Origin: a virus
DNA: 64,000 nucleotides
Direction: 5' to 3' (one strand)
IMG/VR virus record: IMGVR_UViG_3300042380_000637
Location: 1-64,000 of that record
This document shows, one piece after another, positions 9,178-30,749 of this stretch (position 1 is its first letter; each line of letters starts with the position of its first letter). The notes beneath the pieces are model-generated. The model searched no databases. It saw only the letters and a program-made list of their open reading frames with translations, and had not been told where the DNA came from. The translations under genes were made by a program, and so were the position numbers.

Positions 9178-10023
9178 ATGGCTATCCGCAGAACCCGTCG
9201 CAAGTCTACGACTTCATCCGCGAAGCGCACACAGGATGTACGCAGCTTCACATACAGAGATTTTAATCGTGAAATGCTCCCGCTTATAGAGGACAAGATG
9301 CACACCTATTGGAGCAAAGATTGGGTGGGTGCAGGGCTGTATACAACAGCCGAAGAATTCATTTCCGAATACAAAAATTACGATGGCAACTTGCGCAAGG
9401 TGGCTGAGTTATACGAGGCTCGTGATATGTATATCCCCGCAAGCTCATCCGTAGAATGCACATTCATGCACGATGTGTGGGGAACCGACCTTGACTTCGC
9501 TGCATATATGCAGGGTGAGCCGGAGTGCTTCATCAATATACACCCCGCAGAGGTGATAAAAAGCAACCTGACAATCCGTGTGATGCACGGGATGTCTCAA
9601 GGGGTGAATGCCCGTGAGGCCACGGAAAAATACCTCAAAATTGCCGACTTGTATACGGCAGCTTTGTCAAAGTATAATGTTCGTGTAGTCCTTGAGTGGG
9701 CGGGCGTGTCAAGAAACGGCTCGGTGGACTTCACATATAAATATGAGGTGGAGCTTTGCGGATTTGGCGAGGTGCTTTCCCCGCTCACACTCGTAAGCGC
9801 CCTGAGCGCCCCCACATACAGGGCTGTAATGTTGGGTGTTTGCGCCACCTTCGGAGCAACAAGCTGTGAGTGGCATCCAGACCAACAAGCCTACCTAAAC
9901 AAGCCCGCTGTTATACGGGAGGGTGATTCAATTATCATCCCGCCTATATACAACCAAAGCAAGTCTGAATGGGAGCTTGAGAACATGATGCGGGCTGCAG
10001 GATTGACAGAGGAGGGCGCGTAA
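9178..10023 (+). CDS. Putative partner protein of the AAA+ ATPase (VWA-partner-like, uncertain)
   Basis: This 281-residue protein starts with a basic tail (MAIRRTRRKSTTSSAKR). The core has VWGTDLDFAAYMQGEPECFINI, HPAEVIKSNLTIRVMHGMSQG and RVVLEWAGVSRNG, a pattern I associate with phage proteins paired with MoxR-like ATPases (DUF7192-like). That assignment is from memory and uncertain. It follows the AAA+ gene after 32 nt in the same operon. The gene ends in EEGA and its stop codon lies in the loop of a 7-bp hairpin directly before the first tRNA-like element. Confidence 0.55.
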   Translation: MAIRRTRRKSTTSSAKRTQDVRSFTYRDFNREMLPLIEDKMHTYWSKDWVGAGLYTTAEEFISEYKNYDGNLRKVAELYEARDMYIPASSSVECTFMHDVWGTDLDFAAYMQGEPECFINIHPAEVIKSNLTIRVMHGMSQGVNAREATEKYLKIADLYTAALSKYNVRVVLEWAGVSRNGSVDFTYKYEVELCGFGEVLSPLTLVSALSAPTYRAVMLGVCATFGATSCEWHPDQQAYLNKPAVIREGDSIIIPPIYNQSKSEWELENMMRAAGLTEEGA

Positions 10024-10030
10024 GCCCTCC
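10012..10030 (+). other. Hairpin enclosing the stop codon of the partner gene
   Basis: The arms GGAGGGC and GCCCTCC enclose a loop GCGTAA that contains the TAA stop. The stem is 7 bp and lies 4 nt before the first tRNA-like element. The same arms recur at the end of the gene at 10391-10720. It may protect the 3' end of the upstream message or shape the element's 5' flank. Confidence 0.55.
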
Positions 10031-10034
10031 GCCC

Positions 10035-10109
10035 TCCGGAGCAGGGCTTGTATACAGCAACGCTGTATAGGCGGTTCGATTCCGCCCTCCGGAGCAATGC
10101 CATATGGCA
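10035..10109 (+). ncRNA. tRNA-like element 1 plus trailing hairpin
   Basis: Acceptor stem TCCGGAG (10035-10041) pairs with CTCCGGA (10087-10093). T-arm GGCGG/CCGCC (10070-10074 with 10082-10086) encloses loop TTCGATT. The 28-nt insert holds GGG and an 8-bp hairpin TATACAGC/GCTGTATA with loop AAC, too small for a true anticodon loop. GCA follows, then the palindrome TGCCATATGGCA (10098-10109). It precedes the lipoprotein gene (ATG 10133). The body is 59 nt, against 72-90 for tRNA. Confidence 0.8.
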
Positions 10110-10132
10110 GATTATACACAAACCAATTTATT

Positions 10133-10360
10133 ATGTTCAAAGCACTTGCCCTCGTTACACTGTCCGCCCTTGCATCATGCATCAGCAGCCCCAAGCCCGT
10201 AAGCACAATCAAGCGCTCACACAATACAAAGCGTGTTGTGCGCCCCTTGTCCGAAGGTGTTGTATACGCCATGTATATCGACACAAGCTATCGTGTAGGC
10301 GACACCATCCGCATCGAATACACACACGAAGAAACCCGTGCAGCCGTAGTTATCCGTTAA
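10133..10360 (+). CDS. Small lipoprotein
   Basis: This 75-residue protein starts MFKALALVTLSALASC, a short type II signal peptide with lipobox LASC; Cys16 would be acylated and anchored to a membrane. The mature part is basic and polar (KRSHNTKRVVRP), followed by a beta-strand-like segment (DTIRIEYTHEETRAAVVIR). The ATG lies 23 nt after the trailing hairpin of tRNA-like element 1; a longer in-frame reading would run back into that element. Phage lipoproteins are often superinfection-exclusion factors, but that role is only a possibility here. Confidence 0.7.
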   Translation: MFKALALVTLSALASCISSPKPVSTIKRSHNTKRVVRPLSEGVVYAMYIDTSYRVGDTIRIEYTHEETRAAVVIR

Positions 10361-10390
10361 TCATTCTCACAAATAAAATCGTATACAATT

Positions 10391-10720
10391 ATGCTACAAA
10401 TCAAAGTTCAGGGCTTGACCCTCGGAGACCTCCGCACCAACCCGATTACAGAAATCATGCAGCTGTTCTTCAAATACCAATCGGAGGAGCGCGAAGAGGT
10501 GTTACACGGATACAGCCGTATACTCGCACTTGCATCAGATGCAGCCGCTGTGTTGCAGGATACGGATTATGATTACAACATCCGTTATATAAACAGACAT
10601 GCCACTTTTCAAATGTATAAAAAGGTGGACTACTATTGCGGGATAACCGCAGACGAATATAGGGACATGATGCACCCGCTTGAGGTGGTGCGCATCATGG
10701 AGACAGAGGAGGGCGCATAA
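10391..10720 (+). CDS. Hypothetical early protein
   Basis: This 109-residue protein starts MLQIKVQGLTLGDLRTN. It has an acidic-basic helix (QLFFKYQSEEREEVLHGYSRI) and many aromatic residues later (DYDYNIRYINRHATFQMYKK). It has no signal or membrane segment. It follows the lipoprotein gene by 30 nt without a tRNA-like element, so the two probably share one message. It ends EEGA like the gene at 9178. Function unknown. Confidence 0.6.
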   Translation: MLQIKVQGLTLGDLRTNPITEIMQLFFKYQSEEREEVLHGYSRILALASDAAAVLQDTDYDYNIRYINRHATFQMYKKVDYYCGITADEYRDMMHPLEVVRIMETEEGA

Positions 10721-10727
10721 GCCCTCC
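10710..10727 (+). other. Hairpin enclosing a stop codon
   Basis: The same 7-bp arms as at 10012 (GGAGGGC with GCCCTCC) enclose the loop GCATAA, which contains the TAA stop. tRNA-like element 2 begins 5 nt after it. Confidence 0.55.
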
Positions 10728-10731
10728 ACAA

Positions 10732-10813
10732 TCCGGAGCGAGGCGTATACAGCCTGTGTGTGTGCTGTATAGCGGGTTCGAATCCCGCCTCCGGGGCAAT
10801 GCCAATATCGGCA
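10732..10813 (+). ncRNA. tRNA-like element 2 plus trailing hairpin
   Basis: Acceptor TCCGGAG (10732-10738) pairs with CTCCGGG (10789-10795), the last pair being a wobble in RNA. T-arm GCGGG/CCCGC (10772-10776 with 10784-10788) encloses TTCGAAT. The 33-nt insert has GGCG and the 8-bp hairpin TATACAGC/GCTGTATA with a 10-nt TG-repeat loop. GCA follows, then TGCC/GGCA with a 6-nt loop (10800-10813). It is nearly identical to element 7. It precedes the gene at 10831. Confidence 0.8.
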
Positions 10814-10830
10814 GATTATTCAAAACCAAA

Positions 10831-11307
10831 ATGTATATGTTTGAAGAAATGTATAACCAAGAAATTCGTAATCGTAATGTGTTGCGAGGCATATGTAACG
10901 CAAATGATTTGTTCTTTGCCCGCTTGCAGCCTATGGCCGACAGCGCTGCAAAGTGGTTGCAGAATCAGTATAACAACATGAAGCTAAACCTAAAGGTTAA
11001 GGTGGGTGAAATCCAATTTGGTAACGGGATGCGTATACTGATTAGTATACACGATGAACTTACCAAGAAAAATTATCCCTTCTGCTTTGCAGAGATAGAG
11101 ATGCAAGCCGAAGCCGTTGGCGATATAGAGGTGGCCGTATACAAATCACCCGTGTACACTATACACAAGCACGACAAAATAGTGGCTCGATACAACAACA
11201 TCATAGATGTAGTTGGCAATAGCGATGTGGATGCTCTTGGTCGCAAAATTATGCGGGAACACCTTAATGCGAAATTTGGCAAGATAGGTGTAAGCGTATT
11301 GCACTAA
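10831..11307 (+). CDS. Hypothetical early protein
   Basis: I start at MYMFEEMYNQ (158 residues), 17 nt after the trailing hairpin of element 2. An in-frame start at 10756 lies inside the tRNA-like element and is rejected. The protein has a helical N-terminus (FARLQPMADSAAKWLQNQYNNMKLNL) and a beta-rich centre (RILISIHDELTKKNYPFCFAEIEM). It is soluble by composition. It occupies its own punctuated unit between elements 2 and 3. Function unknown. Confidence 0.6.
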   Translation: MYMFEEMYNQEIRNRNVLRGICNANDLFFARLQPMADSAAKWLQNQYNNMKLNLKVKVGEIQFGNGMRILISIHDELTKKNYPFCFAEIEMQAEAVGDIEVAVYKSPVYTIHKHDKIVARYNNIIDVVGNSDVDALGRKIMREHLNAKFGKIGVSVLH

Positions 11308-11317
11308 CACACATACA

Positions 11318-11387
11318 TCCGGAGGGCGCAGGGCGTATACACGGGAGGTTCGATTCCTCCCTCCGGAGCAATGCACAATGGTGTGCA
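11318..11387 (+). ncRNA. tRNA-like element 3 plus trailing hairpin
   Basis: Acceptor TCCGGAG (11318-11324) pairs with CTCCGGA (11361-11367). T-arm GGAGG/CCTCC (11344-11348 with 11356-11360) encloses TTCGATT. The insert is only 19 nt and can form GCGC/GCGT with loop AGG, so there is no anticodon-type arm. The trailing hairpin TGCACA/TGTGCA (11372-11387, loop ATGG) differs from the others by paired changes. It precedes the gene at 11408. Confidence 0.78.
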
Positions 11388-11407
11388 GATATATATACAC
11401 TTATCAT

Positions 11408-11578
11408 ATGCCTAAATTACTTCGTAATTCTCTCGCTCTCCTGTGCGCCTTCTGCATGATGGCTGCGTTCCTGCTCATGTTTCTCGACCCTGCCCATATA
11501 GAGGCAGAGTGCTTCTTCTTCTGTGTATACGGAGGAATGGCTGCCTTGTTGCTGTACCATGAAAGGGATGCGGATTAG
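11408..11578 (+). CDS. Small membrane protein
   Basis: This 56-residue protein starts MPKLLRNSLALLCAFCMMAA. It has two hydrophobic segments (about residues 8-25 and 36-50) with a short acidic linker (LDPAHIEAE) and an acidic C-terminus (HERDAD). The first segment has a positive N-terminus and could be a signal anchor. It forms a unit behind tRNA-like element 3. Small two-helix phage membrane proteins may modify the host envelope; no family was recognised. Confidence 0.55.
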   Translation: MPKLLRNSLALLCAFCMMAAFLLMFLDPAHIEAECFFFCVYGGMAALLLYHERDAD

Positions 11579-11635
11579 GGTAGGGCGTGAAAAACAAATT
11601 TGAAAAAAAATTTTGCGCTTCTTTATCATAGATAA

Positions 11636-11702
11636 GTGGCGGGATGTCGAAACTTTTTCCGGCTTTTGTCGAAAAAAAATTTGGATTTGATTTTCCCGCC
11701 AC
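11636..11702 (+). repeat. Inverted repeat in an A/T-rich gap
   Basis: GTGGCGGGA (11636-11644) and TCCCGCCAC (11694-11702) are perfect 9-bp inverted repeats with a 49-nt loop. The loop holds a direct repeat of TGTCGAAA. The right arm lies inside the promoter spacer before the gene at 11757. It could be a terminator-like structure for the upstream unit or a regulator site. The rest of the gap 11579-11756 is A/T-rich and empty apart from the promoter. Confidence 0.45.
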
Positions 11703-11712
11703 ATTACATTTG
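11680..11712 (+). promoter_or_regulatory. Bacteroidetes-type promoter
   Basis: TTTG at 11680-11683 and TACATTTG at 11705-11712 are spaced by 21 nt, an excellent match to the Bacteroidetes consensus. The ATG at 11757 lies 44 nt downstream. It gives the second half of the small-gene operon an internal transcription start. Confidence 0.65.
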
Positions 11713-11756
11713 CCTCATCGTTTCATCTCTCACACTCTATTACACACACTACACAC

Positions 11757-11987
11757 ATGTTACACATCTCTAACGGCTTGCTCACCTCCGAATCGGTGGC
11801 ACTATTACGCAAACATTCTTTATCAAAGGATGCCAATCCTGTGCATAAAATCGCTGAGGGCATGGCCTTCGCTGATGTCGTGCAAGAAATCCCGCTGCCC
11901 GCACTCATACAAGTGGTGGGCTTGCGTGTGAACATCAGCAAGGTGGCGGCCATCACAATTGTGCATTTTCACTGCTCTCCCAACTGA
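11757..11987 (+). CDS. Hypothetical early protein
   Basis: This 76-residue protein starts MLHISNGLLTSESVALLRKH. It is mostly helical, with EGMAFADVVQEIPLPALIQVVGLRV in the middle. It is the first gene after an internal promoter and is followed 7 nt later by tRNA-like element 4. No family was recognised, and composition is the only evidence besides its place. Confidence 0.55.
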   Translation: MLHISNGLLTSESVALLRKHSLSKDANPVHKIAEGMAFADVVQEIPLPALIQVVGLRVNISKVAAITIVHFHCSPN

Positions 11988-11994
11988 GGGCGCA

Positions 11995-12060
11995 TCCGGA
12001 AACGCAAGGGCGTATACAAGGCGGGTTCGAATCCCGCTTCCGGAGCAATGCCATATGGCA
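11995..12060 (+). ncRNA. tRNA-like element 4 plus trailing hairpin
   Basis: Acceptor TCCGGAA (11995-12001) pairs with TTCCGGA (12038-12044): base pair 7 is A-T instead of the G-C of element 1, a compensatory change. T-arm GCGGG/CCCGC (12021-12025 with 12033-12037) encloses TTCGAAT. The 19-nt insert forms ACGC/GCGT with loop AAGG. GCA and the palindrome TGCCATATGGCA (12049-12060) follow. It precedes the gene at 12087. Confidence 0.8.
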
Positions 12061-12086
12061 GATTATACACAAACCAATTACACTAT

Positions 12087-12323
12087 ATGACAACGCAAGA
12101 GAAATTGCAAGCACAGATTAACTATTACGCTGATGTTGTTGAGCGCAGAGGCAGCGCAAGGTGGGATGTATCACCATCAGCCGGATATGGGTGGGATGCG
12201 GATGAGTGGAATTACAGGTATGACATCATGGCTGCGCTTCGTGAGCGGGGATATTCGGTGCGCTCCGAAGTCAATCACGGGGTAACGGATATTTTTATCA
12301 CCAAACCAATTTCATTATCCTAA
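12087..12323 (+). CDS. Hypothetical early protein
   Basis: This 78-residue protein starts MTTQEKLQAQINYYADVVER. A long N-terminal helix is followed by a Trp- and Tyr-rich stretch (GYGWDADEWNYRYDIMAALRERGY) and a short beta region (VRSEVNHGVTDIFITKP). Its last codons and stop lie inside the first copy of a duplicated leader. The ATG lies 26 nt after the hairpin of element 4. Function unknown. Confidence 0.6.
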   Translation: MTTQEKLQAQINYYADVVERRGSARWDVSPSAGYGWDADEWNYRYDIMAALRERGYSVRSEVNHGVTDIFITKPISLS

Positions 12324-12388
12324 TCAATATACACATGGAATTTCATCACCAAACCAATTCTATTATTTTAACCAATATACACATGGAA
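12297..12388 (+). repeat. Tandem duplication of a gene leader and start codon
   Basis: Segments 12297-12340 and 12345-12388 are imperfect copies 48 nt apart; both end with the same ATACACATGGAA. The duplication supplies two in-frame start codons (12335 and 12383) for the next gene and resembles the leaders that follow the tRNA-like elements. Confidence 0.65.
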
Positions 12389-12673
12389 ACCAAACCAATT
12401 GTTTTGTGCAGAGAGATAAATGGATATACACCCGCGGTATGGAACGCTTCGGGCGAACTTATAGGTGTTATATGCCCGCAAAGCGGTGTGGTAAACATTG
12501 CCAATCAAATCAATGAATTATTGACCAGCTACTTCCCAGATGGTACATTGCTGCCAAATGAAACAAACGCATCTTTTGGATGGGCGGATGGGTATTTAGA
12601 TTTATATACAAACTATACATACGATGGGGAAAAAGAACATGTAAGATTAACATGGGTGCGTATGTATAGATAA
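12383..12673 (+). CDS. Hypothetical early protein
   Basis: I start at METKPIVLCR (96 residues). The ATG at 12335 is in frame and would add 16 residues that derive from a duplicated leader, so the shorter form is preferred. The protein is beta-rich (AVWNASGELIGVICPQSGVVNIAN) with a polar aromatic C-terminus (DLYTNYTYDGEKEHVRLTWVRM). It ends 13 nt before element 5. Function unknown. Confidence 0.55.
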   Translation: METKPIVLCREINGYTPAVWNASGELIGVICPQSGVVNIANQINELLTSYFPDGTLLPNETNASFGWADGYLDLYTNYTYDGEKEHVRLTWVRMYR

Positions 12674-12686
12674 CACACACACCACA

Positions 12687-12761
12687 TCCGGATGCCGAGA
12701 GGCGGGCGTGTTATACGCAGGGTTCGATTCCCTCATCCGGAGCAATGCGAAATAGTTCGCA
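12687..12761 (+). ncRNA. tRNA-like element 5 plus trailing hairpin
   Basis: Acceptor TCCGGAT (12687-12693) pairs with ATCCGGA (12735-12741); pair 7 is T-A. The T-arm has four pairs (AGGG/CCCT) and loop TTCGATT (12723-12729). The insert has a mini D-arm GCC-GAGA-GGC with a GNRA loop and an arm GCGTG/TACGC with loop TTA. The trailing hairpin TGCGAA/TTCGCA (12746-12761) has six pairs and different bases from the other copies. It precedes the gene at 12783. Confidence 0.78.
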
Positions 12762-12782
12762 GATTTTTAAACCAATATACAA

Positions 12783-12992
12783 ATGGAAAAATTGTTTGAG
12801 TTTCGTGTCAATCCGATTATCAAAGGCGAGGTGTATATCGTCAATTACATCGGGCAAATTATCTGTCGTCTATACGAGAACGACTACATCGACCATGACG
12901 ACCCGAAACAGGCACAGCTGCTGCAAGCGCAGCGTGTATGTGATGCACTCATTGCTCAACACATCCTTAACACGAACAGCCATGAAGCTTGA
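12783..12992 (+). CDS. Small hypothetical early protein
   Basis: This 69-residue protein starts MEKLFEFRVNPIIKGEVYIV. The N-terminal half is beta-rich and the C-terminal half helical (DDPKQAQLLQAQRVCDALIAQ). The ATG lies 21 nt after the hairpin of element 5, and the stop overlaps the next start by 11 nt. Function unknown. Confidence 0.6.
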   Translation: MEKLFEFRVNPIIKGEVYIVNYIGQIICRLYENDYIDHDDPKQAQLLQAQRVCDALIAQHILNTNSHEA

Positions 12993-13230
12993 GTTGGTGA
13001 GCGCAGAACTGCAGAGTTGTAGCAAAAAAATCAGCGTTGAACTTATGCTGTATATTGGCGGAAGGGAGATTGAACTCTCCCTTAACGCCATCTACTACAT
13101 CGAATATGGCCGCAACTATGTAGATTGGGAAAGTGTATACACAGACGATGACGAGGCGCTGGATATAGATGAGGTGCAGCAAGCAATTCAGGAATTTTTA
13201 GACGATTATATAAACACACATTTCGCATGA
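12982..13230 (+). CDS. Small acidic hypothetical protein
   Basis: This 82-residue protein starts MKLELVSAELQSCSKKISVE. It is beta-rich at first (ELMLYIGGREIELSLNAIYYI) and very acidic towards the end (YTDDDEALDIDEVQQAIQEFLDDY). The start overlaps the preceding gene by 11 nt and the end overlaps the following gene by 4 nt (ATGA), so the three form a coupled unit behind element 5. Its charge would suit a protein that mimics DNA or binds a basic host factor, which is speculation. Confidence 0.55.
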   Translation: MKLELVSAELQSCSKKISVELMLYIGGREIELSLNAIYYIEYGRNYVDWESVYTDDDEALDIDEVQQAIQEFLDDYINTHFA

Positions 13231-13619
13231 TTAAATGTATTGTTATCGACAGCGCAAAGCGCGAAGTTTATGAGGCCGAAATCAGCGGCAGCAACCATCG
13301 GGATATATATCCCCTGCTTGGCGAGGGCGTAAGCACCTTCGCATGTCCCGTGCAGTTCAACGAGAGCGACACGCTCTTCGTGGATGACGAGGGATTGTAT
13401 AACACCTTTGAGGGCGGATATATAATGACTGATTGGTCGTATCCAATCTGCGGGAATGGAGTTGTTATCGGCAGCGACACCAATGGCAATAGCGCTCCGG
13501 TGCAGATATCATTGGACGAGGTGCGCAAGCAGGTGAGGTGGGTGAGCAAGGCTGTGTGTGAGCAGTGGCGCGACCATGTGTTAGGCACAGGAGCAGGATT
13601 CCGTATGTACGAAATATAA
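13227..13619 (+). CDS. Hypothetical early protein
   Basis: This 130-residue protein starts MIKCIVIDSAKREVYEAEIS. Alternating beta strands and loops (DTLFVDDEGLYNTFEGGYIM, NGVVIGSDTNGNSAPVQISL) resemble small phage proteins often annotated DUF3846-like, with a conserved C-terminal helix; that link is only a suggestion. It is coupled to the preceding gene by ATGA. It ends 8 nt before tRNA-like element 6. Confidence 0.55.
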   Translation: MIKCIVIDSAKREVYEAEISGSNHRDIYPLLGEGVSTFACPVQFNESDTLFVDDEGLYNTFEGGYIMTDWSYPICGNGVVIGSDTNGNSAPVQISLDEVRKQVRWVSKAVCEQWRDHVLGTGAGFRMYEI

Positions 13620-13627
13620 GCACTCCA

Positions 13628-13700
13628 TCCGGATGCCGAAAGGCGGGCGCTGTATAAGCGCAGGGTTCGATTCCCTCATCCGGAGCAATGCCATAAGGCA
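13628..13700 (+). ncRNA. tRNA-like element 6 plus trailing hairpin
   Basis: Acceptor TCCGGAT (13628-13634) pairs with ATCCGGA (13678-13684). The T-arm AGGG/CCCT encloses TTCGATT (13666-13672). The insert carries the mini D-arm GCC-GAAA-GGC (13635-13644; GAAA against GAGA in element 5) and an anticodon-like arm GCGCT/AGCGC with loop GTATA (13647-13661). This copy is the most tRNA-like, yet its loop is 5 nt. The trailing hairpin is TGCC/GGCA with loop ATAA (13689-13700). Confidence 0.8.
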
Positions 13701-13724
13701 GATTATTTAAAACAAAGTTTATAT

Positions 13725-14237
13725 ATGCACAATTTACATTTCGTAGTGATTCACGGCAAAAGCGGAGCGGATGCTTGCAAAAATGCCGAAAACATGTTGT
13801 CCGATTTTGGCAACGAAAACAATTGGAGAGAATTCTCCGGCGCTATATCCGAACACGGACAAGTGTATATCAGCGGAGAGGGGCGATTCTCTCCCACACC
13901 CGACATGACTATACACGACTGCAATCTGTGGATACGGCAGGTGCGAACCGAAATCACAGCCTCCTACGGGAACACCGCCTTAGCAAAACTGCAGAGCGGA
14001 AATACGGATGTAACAGACCAAAGCAAGTGGAGCAAGCACGATTTATGGCTTCTCAAACGCCTTGCAGAACACTTATACGAAATTCATGGCGGAGTAAAGA
14101 CAGAAGACTTCGATGTGCTTCAGCATGGCTTTTACGATTGGCAATTTGACCAAGAAGGCGTAACGCACTGCGATGATTATGCTTGTGGCGAAGAGGGCGA
14201 GTGCAGGTGGGTGGTGTTTGTAGACATGCACAGCTAA
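13725..14237 (+). CDS. Hypothetical early protein
   Basis: This is one of the largest products of the small-gene operon, 170 residues, starting MHNLHFVVIHGKSGADACKN. The beginning resembles a Rossmann-like strand and loop (FVVIHGKSG). A long central region is helical (SKHDLWLLKRLAEHLYEIHG), and the C-terminus is acidic with two Cys (DDYACGEEGECRWVVFVDMH). The start lies 25 nt after the hairpin of element 6. No family was recognised. Confidence 0.6.
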   Translation: MHNLHFVVIHGKSGADACKNAENMLSDFGNENNWREFSGAISEHGQVYISGEGRFSPTPDMTIHDCNLWIRQVRTEITASYGNTALAKLQSGNTDVTDQSKWSKHDLWLLKRLAEHLYEIHGGVKTEDFDVLQHGFYDWQFDQEGVTHCDDYACGEEGECRWVVFVDMHS

Positions 14238-14253
14238 TCGTGTAACACGAACA

Positions 14254-14335
14254 TCCGGAGCGAGGCGTATACAGCCTGTGTGTGTGCTGTATAGCGGGTT
14301 CGAATCCCGCCTCCGGAACAATGCCAATATCGGCA
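14254..14335 (+). ncRNA. tRNA-like element 7 plus trailing hairpin
   Basis: Acceptor TCCGGAG (14254-14260) pairs fully with CTCCGGA (14311-14317), and the T-arm GCGGG/CCCGC encloses TTCGAAT. The insert is identical to element 2, with the 8-bp hairpin and TG-repeat loop. The base after the acceptor is A (ACA) instead of G (GCA). The trailing hairpin TGCC/GGCA spans 14322-14335. A short hairpin TCGTG-TAA-CACGA (14238-14250) stands just upstream. It precedes the gene at 14356. Confidence 0.8.
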
Positions 14336-14355
14336 GATTACTTAATATCATCTAT

Positions 14356-14610
14356 ATGAAAAACGAAAAGGAATTATCCGAACACTGGAACGGCAAAGCC
14401 GCCACACTTGTTGGCAAAACCATTGCAAGCGCAAGGTATATGACGCAGGACGAGGCAGATGCATTTGGGTGGAGCAAGCGGGCGCTGTTTATTAAGTTTA
14501 CCGATGGCTCATACATCATACCCACAAGAGATGACGAGGGGAATGATGGCGGCTCTATACAAGGCCACAATGGCAAGAATAATTTAAACATGTCTTTTCC
14601 AACACTTTAA
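14356..14610 (+). CDS. Small hypothetical protein
   Basis: This 84-residue protein starts MKNEKELSEHWNGKAATLVG. The segment KTIASARYMTQDEADAFGWSKRALFIKFTDGSYIIPTRDDEGNDGG is a pattern seen in many phages and bacteria: a small beta-barrel protein with GW..R and a DG.....P.RD.EGND-type C-terminus. The function of that family is unknown to me. The ATG lies 20 nt after element 7's hairpin; a longer frame would run into the element and is rejected. Confidence 0.65.
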   Translation: MKNEKELSEHWNGKAATLVGKTIASARYMTQDEADAFGWSKRALFIKFTDGSYIIPTRDDEGNDGGSIQGHNGKNNLNMSFPTL

Positions 14611-14621
14611 ATCATATACAA

Positions 14622-14798
14622 ATGACTGCTGAAAATTTAAAAGCACTTATGGAATTAATCACTATCCGCGAAAACCTCGTGGTGCTACAAAATAATCTTG
14701 CACCGGATGGCGGAATGGTGGAGGAGAACACACCGGATGCACACCTGTGGGATGCGATTATACATGTGCAAAGGGCAATCATGGCATTGAAATCCTAA
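14622..14798 (+). CDS. Short hypothetical protein
   Basis: The frame encodes 58 residues beginning MTAENLKALMELITIREN and ending HVQRAIMALKS. It is helical at both ends with a polar centre (APDGGMVEENTPDAHLWDAI). It follows the gene at 14356 by 11 nt with the leader ATCATATACAA, so the two are probably co-translated. Function unknown. Confidence 0.55.
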   Translation: MTAENLKALMELITIRENLVVLQNNLAPDGGMVEENTPDAHLWDAIIHVQRAIMALKS

Positions 14799-14820
14799 AT
14801 TATACACATAGATTATGGTA

Positions 14821-14857
14821 GGGGGCAGATTTTTTCTTCGCAAAAAAATTTGCTCCC
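14821..14857 (+). terminator. Long hairpin, candidate terminator
   Basis: Positions 14821-14835 pair with 14843-14857 to give a 15-bp stem. Two of the pairs are G-T in DNA, so the structure exists at RNA level on the plus strand. The loop is CTTCGCA. A short T tract follows. It ends the unit 14356-14798. The rest of the gap to 14979 is A/T-rich without another clear signal. Confidence 0.5.
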
Positions 14858-14979
14858 TTTCCTGTTTGCGCATTATTGATTTTCGGCAAACCATTTTATT
14901 TTTGGGATGAACAAATATTTTTTTTTGATTATTGGTTTTTATTTCGGACATTTACGATTCACACTTTAACATTTATTTT

Positions 14980-15339
14980 ATGGAAAAACAAGATGAGTTT
15001 ACTTATGGGATAGCTTACTATCCAACGACATTGGCTGATATTAAGTTCTCGTATAGCGGGAAGGAGATTAAATCCAAGCTGGAATTGTATACGCTCTTAC
15101 TTACTCTTCGTGCAGAGGTGAGCGGGTATTTCATTGGAACGATAATCAAAAACGAAGGCCATTTGGTTGAAATTTTTGAAGTGGTGGTGGAAGTGGGTGA
15201 TGATGCTAAGCCGGAGTGGTGGCAGCACTCGTTGTTGCGCATATCCAAAGATGTATACAATGGCATGAGCGAACAGGACAGAACTAAATGGCTTCACGAC
15301 TGCCAAGCAAAAAAGTTTATTGGGGATATACAGGGCTAA
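14980..15339 (+). CDS. Hypothetical early protein
   Basis: I start at MEKQDEFTYG (119 residues), after an A/T-rich leader; the frame is open 48 nt further upstream. It has two beta-alpha segments (LYTLLLTLRAEVSGYFIGTI, EIFEVVVEVGDDAKPEWWQH) and ends DIQG. The stop TAA lies in the loop of a small hairpin GGGC-TAA-GCCC (15333-15343), 3 nt before element 8. Function unknown. Confidence 0.6.
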   Translation: MEKQDEFTYGIAYYPTTLADIKFSYSGKEIKSKLELYTLLLTLRAEVSGYFIGTIIKNEGHLVEIFEVVVEVGDDAKPEWWQHSLLRISKDVYNGMSEQDRTKWLHDCQAKKFIGDIQG

Positions 15340-15346
15340 GCCCGCA

Positions 15347-15430
15347 TCCGGAATGCATGGCTGTGTCAGATACGCTAAATGCGTATTTGAGAGGGTTCGA
15401 TTCCCTCTTCCGGAGCAATGCCATATGGCA
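15347..15430 (+). ncRNA. tRNA-like element 8 plus trailing hairpin
   Basis: Acceptor TCCGGAA (15347-15353) pairs with TTCCGGA (15408-15414). T-arm GAGGG/CCCTC (15391-15395 with 15403-15407) encloses TTCGATT. The 37-nt insert is the longest: a 13-nt single strand with GG, then a 9-bp arm (15367-15375 with 15381-15389, one wobble) with a 5-nt loop TAAAT. GCA and TGCCATATGGCA (15419-15430) follow. It precedes the gene at 15452. Confidence 0.8.
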
Positions 15431-28298: not shown

Positions 28299-28671
28299 AG
28301 ACGGAAACTACTTTATTGTTGAAGAGTCTTCCAACAAAACTCTTACCATCTACCTGCATCTTGCAAGTGAAAAGAAAAATCGCGAGCTGGGTGTTGTAAC
28401 AGAAGCGCAAAGCGTATTCCGCACAAACAGGAACCCAGACAAGCATTTGTTTCGGAAAAACAACTCCTACGGATTCAACGAATATGTTATACGTACAGCC
28501 AAAAAGTTTGACAAAATACATTTGGTGGAAACAGCCGGAAATGAATACCTGTTTCCAAAGGACTTAGTGCTTGAAAAGGGAGACTACCTCCATTTTAAAA
28601 CAGAAGGATTTGAAAGGCAATTATTCCTTAAATTGTCTGATATTTATCCATACAAAATTTCATCTCTATAA
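28267..28671 (+). CDS. Hypothetical protein
   Basis: This 134-residue protein starts MSKKRITHSDKDGNYFIVEE. It is basic and beta-rich (KTLTIYLHLASEKKNRELGVV, FDKIHLVETAGNEYLFPKDL). It overlaps the DUF3310 gene in another frame by 32 nt, which is long for coupling but supported by good composition. Function unknown. Confidence 0.55.
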   Translation: MSKKRITHSDKDGNYFIVEESSNKTLTIYLHLASEKKNRELGVVTEAQSVFRTNRNPDKHLFRKNNSYGFNEYVIRTAKKFDKIHLVETAGNEYLFPKDLVLEKGDYLHFKTEGFERQLFLKLSDIYPYKISSL

Positions 28672-28672
28672 C

Positions 28673-28990
28673 ATGGAAATTTCTCAAAATAAAAATATCC
28701 CAATCGGCGCAAGAGTGAAGCCGCTTTTGATGATTATAGAAAATGCTATCTGGGAATACGAGGTGAGCAACCCTAATCCTCCCGGATTCGATGACGAAGC
28801 TTTTCGCGCAATTATAAAGCTTTTTGGCGCATCCGTTATAGAACGCGTCTGGGACTTGCAAGAATCAGAAGGTATGTCAGACGATGACCGCTTAGCAATG
28901 GGTCTGGCCGTAGCCAACGAAATACGCAAGCTTATTAAAGTGTTTACAAATATAGATACACATAAACTTACAGAAGAAATACTCCGATGA
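28673..28990 (+). CDS. Hypothetical acidic protein
   Basis: This 105-residue protein starts MEISQNKNIPIGARVKPLLM. It is helical (IENAIWEYEVSNPNPPGFDD, AFRAIIKLFGASVIERVWDLQ, ANEIRKLIKVFTNIDTHKL). Its start follows the previous stop by 1 nt and its end overlaps the next start by 4 nt. Function unknown. Confidence 0.6.
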   Translation: MEISQNKNIPIGARVKPLLMIIENAIWEYEVSNPNPPGFDDEAFRAIIKLFGASVIERVWDLQESEGMSDDDRLAMGLAVANEIRKLIKVFTNIDTHKLTEEILR

Positions 28991-30390: not shown

Positions 30391-30749
30391 TTTGTTTGTT
30401 TTTTATAGATTTTGTCTTTTTCTGCAATCCTCTGAGCTATCATATAATTCAAATGCGCAATGCCCGGAGTCGCAATAACTGTTGTATCTTGTTCTACTGG
30501 TATTACATCCACTTGTTTTTTTCCAATCATTACCCCTTCCTCCGCCTTCTCGGCATCTGGATTGCGCTTCAATGGCTGCAGTTTCTCAACAAATCTATCA
30601 ACAGCTTTGTAGTCTTTCTTCTGTATAAGCTCGCGCACATGCGCTGTGTGAGATTTTGGGATTACGGCCATTATGCCTTTGCTACTTTTTATAAGTAGCT
30701 CTCCGCCTTCGACTTCTAACTTAGTCTTTTCTGCCATATCCTTATACAT
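30387..30749 (-). CDS. Hypothetical protein of the virion operon
   Basis: This 120-residue protein starts MYKDMAEKTKLEVEGGELLI. It contains GELLIKSSKGIMAVIPKSHTAHVRELIQ, a block I have seen in proteins encoded beside virion genes in Bacteroidetes phages, and a helical C-terminus (LNYMIAQRIAEKDKIYKKQ). It overlaps the next upstream gene by 8 nt. Its role is unknown; a minor structural role is inferred from context. Confidence 0.6.
   Translation of the reverse strand: MYKDMAEKTKLEVEGGELLIKSSKGIMAVIPKSHTAHVRELIQKKDYKAVDRFVEKLQPLKRNPDAEKAEEGVMIGKKQVDVIPVEQDTTVIATPGIAHLNYMIAQRIAEKDKIYKKQTK

Follow-up and report, generated by a model that had tools for sequence, protein, structure and literature searches.

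Intergenic elements that resemble tRNAs recur eight times within one rightward operon of a virus in the IMG/VR collection (record IMGVR_UViG_3300042380_000637), of which positions 1 to 64,000 were analyzed here (the window). The elements share a tRNA-like fold whose stems covary, they are flanked by hairpins, they sit between genes and stay linked to the genes that they precede, and in other phages true tRNAs occupy the same slot. From these sequence features, we consider it probable that the elements are degenerate, nondecoding tRNAs that punctuate a polycistronic phage transcript and are excised from it by the RNase P and RNase Z of the host.

A preliminary description of this DNA had reported eight copies, and all eight were found on the plus strand. 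Element 1, from acceptor to discriminator, spans positions 10035 to 10094, and elements 2 to 8 span 10732 to 10796, 11318 to 11368, 11995 to 12045, 12687 to 12742, 13628 to 13685, 14254 to 14318, and 15347 to 15415. The anatomy given for them was likewise borne out, with an acceptor TCCGGAN/NTCCGGA, a T-loop TTCGATT or TTCGAAT, inserts of 19 to 37 nt, and bodies of 50 to 68 nt, and holds generally, except that the copy at 10732 ends in CTCCGGG (a U-G closing pair) and that in those at 12687 and 13628 the outer T-stem pair is a C×C mismatch. Element 4 also contains a mini D-arm-like hairpin (ACGC-AAGG-GCGT), and element 8 comes closest to a full cloverleaf. The elements do not combine a complete cloverleaf with a 7-nt anticodon loop as functional tRNAs do, and most lack an anticodon arm. 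The claim that all copies lack a usable anticodon loop was nevertheless slightly too strong, because the copy at 15347, which has a 5-bp/7-nt anticodon-like arm (CUAAAUG), was called by ARAGORN as an atypical tRNA-Phe(AAA) (15347-15416), as was its counterpart in a sister phage; no other call was made in the window. The eight elements are confirmed as real, oriented with the genes, and far above chance: their 3' half (T-loop, acceptor, and GCAATG) matched eight times in the window and not once in any of 100 shuffles. No further copies were found in the whole 67.9-kb virus record.

All eight elements lie between codirectional, rightward open reading frames (ORFs), in gaps that hold no promoter boxes, and are presumably part of a common transcript. 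The junctions are ordered as a 3' hairpin (at most of them), the tRNA-like element, a 5' hairpin, a leader, and the next ORF; both hairpins and the near-constant length of the leader had been overlooked in the preliminary description. CAA follows the discriminator in all window copies, in place of the CCA whose absence marks an RNase Z-type 3' end, and opens the sequence CAATGC...GCAGAT, which directly follows the discriminator in every copy, occurs in the window at the eight element sites only, and forms a hairpin of 4 to 6 bp with a loop that is mostly AUNN. Its inner pairs covary (A-U, C-G, and G-C), while UGC/GCA is fixed. These 5' untranslated region (5'-UTR) hairpins, with the start of the following ORF in each case, are located at 10098 to 10109 (TGCC-ATAT-GGCA; ORF at 10133), 10800 to 10813 (10831), 11372 to 11387 (TGCACA-ATGG-TGTGCA, in the sister phage TGCGTA-ATGG-TGCGCA; 11408), 12049 to 12060 (12087), 12746 to 12761 (TGCGAA-ATAG-TTCGCA; 12783), 13689 to 13700 (13725), 14322 to 14335 (14356), and 15419 to 15430 (15452). 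The leader from discriminator to start codon measures 34 to 41 nt in the window and 29 to 43 nt in the sister phage. The ATG within CAATGC was rejected as a start codon, because not every copy has it in frame with the next ORF.

Directly 5' of most copies is a hairpin at the stop codon of the preceding gene. GGAGGGC-GCGTAA-GCCCTCC (10011 to 10030) stands at the end of the ORF at 9178-10023, and the same GGAGGGC/GCCCTCC stem precedes element 2 (10708 to 10727); GCTCTC/GAGGGC (11974 to 11991) precedes element 4, TCGTG-TAA-CACGA lies right behind the stop codon before element 7 (14238 to 14250), and GGGC-TAA-GCCC (15333 to 15343), with GGGGAT-ATATA-ATCCCC as its sister counterpart, precedes element 8. 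A strong stop-codon hairpin score was found at 13 of the 17 junctions in the window and the sister phage, compared with 17% of 159 other gene ends (p=1e-5). No T-run follows any stop-codon hairpin in the window, and for this reason we rejected intrinsic terminators as an explanation. Promoter-like boxes with a -33 element are confined to gaps without an element: these are the Bacteroidetes-type -7 boxes TACATTTG (11705 to 11712, before the ORF at 11757, conserved in the sister phage) and TATTTTTG (14897 to 14904, before the ORF at 14980). When whole junctions were folded, the tRNA-like element and the 5'-UTR hairpin formed together in seven of the eight and the upstream hairpin in five.

The preliminary description had named a lack of covariation in homologues as one refutation of its reading; covariation across other phages instead proved to support the tRNA-like fold strongly. 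Among 22 distinct elements, double changes occurred in 10 of the 12 pairs of the 12-bp acceptor/T stack, 96% of cells paired versus 64% after shuffling, and the covariation score was 0.86 versus 0.21, with slid partners reaching at most 0.21; the 5' acceptor strand in this test had been picked by complementarity. A less biased test used the linker/T-loop pattern ATGGTNGNA...GGTTCRATTCC and left the acceptor unconstrained. A perfect stack of 11 to 12 bp was present in 44 of the 94 distinct matches listed, compared with 0.3% (maximum, 2.2%) when the 3' flanks were swapped. In a second such test, 39 unfiltered matches of fixed spacing paired at 91% over ten free positions, compared with 45% (maximum, 52%). 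RNAalifold returned exactly the proposed fold, with a covariation score of 1.03 versus 0.21, for 26 diverse sequences that had been preselected for good pairing. The shuffles leave relatedness in place; the contigs of origin are nonetheless numerous and their stems unrelated. Conservation of the linker letters is not evidence, since these were part of the search pattern. Neither C74, present in 37 of the 44 perfect-stack elements listed, nor CCA, present in only 2 of the 44, was imposed by it. Comparison between phages shows constancy only in the T-loop and the two pairs that close it; the stems vary freely with compensation.

The elements also keep their genes. A sister phage (IMGVR_3300008110_000072) carries nine copies, and a third phage (3300008267_000030) carries two. 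Eight window genes follow an element; six of them have a homologue in the sister phage, every one preceded by an element, and the remaining two have no homologue there. The acceptor and T-stem letters of counterparts differ with compensation, differences that could also stem from transfer between paralogous copies, with pairing kept either way. Relative to the sister phage, the ORF at 12783-12992 has moved within the operon and kept its element, and the ORF at 10831-11307, which lacks a sister homologue, occupies the slot between two elements. The window phage looks like a Bacteroidetes phage, judging from a terminase that matches a phage family, a portal protein closest to those of Cellulophaga phages such as phi38:1 (∼23% identity), and its TAnnTTTG promoter boxes. 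No relatives were found of the 281-aa protein encoded before element 1.

In some phages, true tRNAs stand where the elements stand. Contig L162 combines two ∼42-nt elements and a true tRNA-Arg(TCT) in a common hairpin and gene-start context, and Cellulophaga phage phi38:1 (NC_021796; locus L336) has two identical tRNA-Glu genes (28605-28676 and 30575-30646) inside its early operon, ∼20 nt before gp046 and gp050. A form with an intact D-arm and no anticodon arm occurs in L034. In phi38:1, an unannotated degenerate tRNA lies at about 15699 on the minus strand, upstream of gp023, and T-arms also occur upstream of gp030 (RtcB-like ligase) and gp040. A tRNA-Leu-like gene with a long variable arm bears the hairpin CAATGCAATATTGCAGAT in L161 (4428), L179 (6973; Bacteroides ihuae), and G264, and is followed in L161 by a tRNA-Asn. 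Longer tRNA-like elements without the 3' hairpin, with a start codon 20 to 35 nt downstream and in most cases C(T/A)A after the discriminator, were seen in L056 (two copies, 7588 and 10319), L071 (two copies, 6527 and 9421), L086, L034, and L123. In L046, an element ending in CTCCGGC continues into TTTTTTTT, a T-run directly after the tRNA-like stem, as if the acceptor/T stack were a terminator. Matches in a pattern scan of the genome collection mostly fell in coding DNA by chance, and only the tRNA-based L179 and L191 were retained.

Searches freed from the acceptor extended to further phages with wholly different acceptors and the same hairpin, and turned up a second class of downstream hairpin (GAC-AUAA-GUC). 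The micro-tRNA found in this way has a core of ∼42 nt and a D-loop-like GG. Among the micro-elements listed, 33 of 43 lie within 80 nt before an ORF (random, 35%) and 32 of 43 are intergenic (random, 41%); hairpins are enriched downstream of them (p=0.006), and Shine-Dalgarno sites follow the element in several contigs. Unannotated micro-elements are present in Streptococcus phages P738, Javan207, and Javan128, in Mycobacterium phages SWU2 and MrMiyagi, and in the crAss-like phage cr131_1. The SWU2 element has matches, mostly partial, in 41 Mycobacterium and 4 Gordonia phage records, the structure having been checked for the SWU2 copy alone. MrMiyagi (MT776806; L518) has seven matches to model R2, one of two models, R1 and R2, built on the ∼42-nt form. 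By inspection, about 12 of the 14 gaps of >70 nt between 33.8 and 41.6 kb of this phage (33860-41530 of the record) hold the unit or a recognizable variant, nearly always followed by ACG or GCG, mostly by a hairpin, and then by a repeated GGATGGA...ATG start; the unit after 35868 has a variant T-loop. Matches in Enterococcus phage 47, Escherichia coli phage ECO1230-10, and Arthrobacter phage Persistence were unconvincing and were set aside. In Javan128 (L493), positions 1-35 match weakly to the 3' end of transfer-messenger RNA, ∼200 nt upstream of the micro-element, possibly as a remnant of an attachment site.

When single elements were compared with sequenced phages by BLAST, no match covered the full length, and unannotated partial matches were later recognized by their structure as micro-elements. 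Model R1 had no match and the hairpin pattern two in 395 Bacteroidota genomes, and model R2 had one in 296 such genomes (44.6 bits; locus L517, genome G135, C119:41067-41111, minus strand), perhaps in a prophage. The element is therefore not a normal feature of host genomes. The large-sample model searches used stricter filters, under which weak matches are lost, and the nearly empty result says little on the long form, because the models were built on the ∼42-nt form and saw the window copies only in part.

Enzymes that trim tRNA ends are known to read the coaxial acceptor/T helix, the T-loop, a GG like that of the D-loop, and C74 lacking a full CCA. The elements have kept these features (the GG in the micro forms), with a coaxial stack of 11 to 12 bp and a TTCRANN loop. 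We propose that host RNase P would cut at the 5' end of the acceptor and that host RNase Z would cut behind the discriminator. This would leave the upstream mRNA with a 3' end a few nucleotides past its stop-codon hairpin, and the downstream mRNA would start with C-A-A and a hairpin, followed by a short leader and the start codon. The hairpins would protect the resulting 3' and 5' ends, so that the phage may obtain stabilized, separately tuned mRNAs. The punctuation reading of the preliminary description is strengthened by the hairpins on both sides, the real tRNAs in the slot, C74 without CCA, and the confinement of promoter-like boxes to element-free gaps; its framing as a system of a single phage proved too narrow, because phages of bacteria from several phyla carry the elements.

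A few observations weigh against excision. CCA helps bacterial RNase P, and cutting could be weak because positions 74 to 76 differ from it. Copies 12687 and 13628, which carry the T-stem mismatch, have no clear upstream hairpin, the minimum-energy fold of junction 11318 pairs the 3' hairpin differently and does not favor the model, and micro-element phages with class-1 hairpins do not generally have hairpins upstream. Alternatively, the element may act uncut, as a 5'-UTR structure influencing translation or mRNA stability in cis (a roadblock, an insulator, or a binding site for ribosomes or tRNA factors). Its unvarying location ahead of the following gene, within the leader and at a nearly fixed spacing, and the Shine-Dalgarno sites behind it in several contigs would suit such a role. 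We nonetheless regard it as unlikely, as the conserved tRNA elbow, C74, and the exchange with real tRNAs favor excision, and stop-codon hairpins right before the element fit a 3' end rather than a plain leader.

The tRNA-like shape, stems little constrained in sequence, and up to ∼12 copies in one phage would also be expected of decoys, that is, micro-tRNAs that, excised or intact, occupy host tRNA-binding proteins (RNase P, the CCA-adding enzyme, modification enzymes, or tRNA-cleaving defense nucleases) and stand in front of genes merely to be transcribed. This seems improbable to us: it leaves unexplained the near-constant distance to the start codon, the enrichment before ORFs, the flanking hairpins, and the gene linkage, and most elements offer anticodon nucleases no anticodon loop. 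Intergenic DNA repeats used for homologous or site-specific exchange of gene cassettes could account for the differing genes between consecutive elements in the window and the sister phage, where the ORF at 10831 lacks a homologue and that at 12783 has moved. Six of the eight downstream genes nonetheless keep their element, the T-loop and tRNA context point to RNA, and the phages share no DNA core for a recombinase to recognize beyond the T-loop and its two closing pairs, while the stems covary; recombination sites are thus very unlikely, and mobile repeats were rejected for want of a common DNA core. That the elements are decaying tRNA genes with no present role, as the nearly complete tRNAs of copy 8 and its sister counterpart and the L034 form might suggest, is scarcely credible, being contradicted by compensatory changes in 10 of 12 pairs and by a near-constant leader length and added hairpins that remnants would not keep.

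Beyond the window, we hold it evenly balanced whether tailed phages of Bacteroidota, Bacillota, and Actinomycetota carry an unrecognized class of dedicated, nondecoding micro-tRNAs, portable start-of-gene modules that direct host tRNA-maturation enzymes to cut operons into hairpin-flanked mRNAs, much as in mitochondria. If so, phages would use these enzymes for mRNA maturation through RNA elements of ∼42 nt, a widespread RNA class would have been missed by the tRNA and RNA-family searches run here, tightly packed phage operons would have a mechanism for separating gene expression, and minimal natural substrates of RNase P and RNase Z would be defined. The proposal is directly testable in isolated laboratory phages, namely Cellulophaga phage phi38:1 and the Mycobacterium smegmatis phage MrMiyagi/Fowlmouth.

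The principle of tRNA punctuation is known, and the RNA family in phages appears to be undescribed. Strict and permissive searches of Rfam 15 reached no family at the gathering threshold, matching true tRNAs only and not reaching Rfam tRNA in the window, and phage elements of this kind were not described in the open-access literature searched; the subscription literature may differ. The SAS/ESAS elements of cluster K mycobacteriophages, a 13-bp GGGATAGGAGCCC with 17-bp inverted repeats for which no tRNA-like fold is reported (PMC3203893), are also repeated, gene-linked elements just before start codons, and about half of them include the inverted repeats. We rejected identity with them, as the motif GGGATAGGAGCCC is absent from the window junctions and TM4 has no R2 match. 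It is established that RNase P acts on tRNA-like structures, phage RNAs, and polycistronic mRNAs, and its non-tRNA substrates include plant-virus tRNA-like ends, the C4 antisense RNA of phages P1/P7, and M3 RNA (PMC11143913). These too are tRNA-like folds in viral or operon RNAs, but each is an isolated case with an unrelated structure, and none is a module repeated at gene starts whose acceptor/T stack covaries. The TMERs of gammaherpesvirus MHV68 consist of a tRNA-like element and downstream hairpins and are cut by tRNase Z (PMC4838037). They resemble the phage elements in being viral, tRNA-like, and directly followed by a hairpin, with eight copies there and eight in the window; however, TMERs are noncoding RNA polymerase III transcripts whose hairpins become microRNAs, whereas the phage hairpin lies in the 5'-UTR of a gene. 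The tRNA genes of phage operons, such as the tRNA-Glu genes of phi38:1 and the tRNA-Arg gene of L162, share the slot and the distance class to the start codon with our elements, but they are complete tRNAs, which need excision to work, whereas the elements have mostly lost the anticodon arm. Polycistronic mitochondrial transcripts are the established case of tRNA punctuation, and the likeness lies in tRNA structures between the ORFs of one transcript and in the release of mRNAs by 5' and 3' tRNA processing, which we propose here. The punctuating tRNAs of mitochondria also decode, whereas the phage elements are mostly nondecoding, the anticodon arm being missing in most copies and true tRNAs present only in some relatives; they bring their own flanking hairpins, and their cleavage is predicted.

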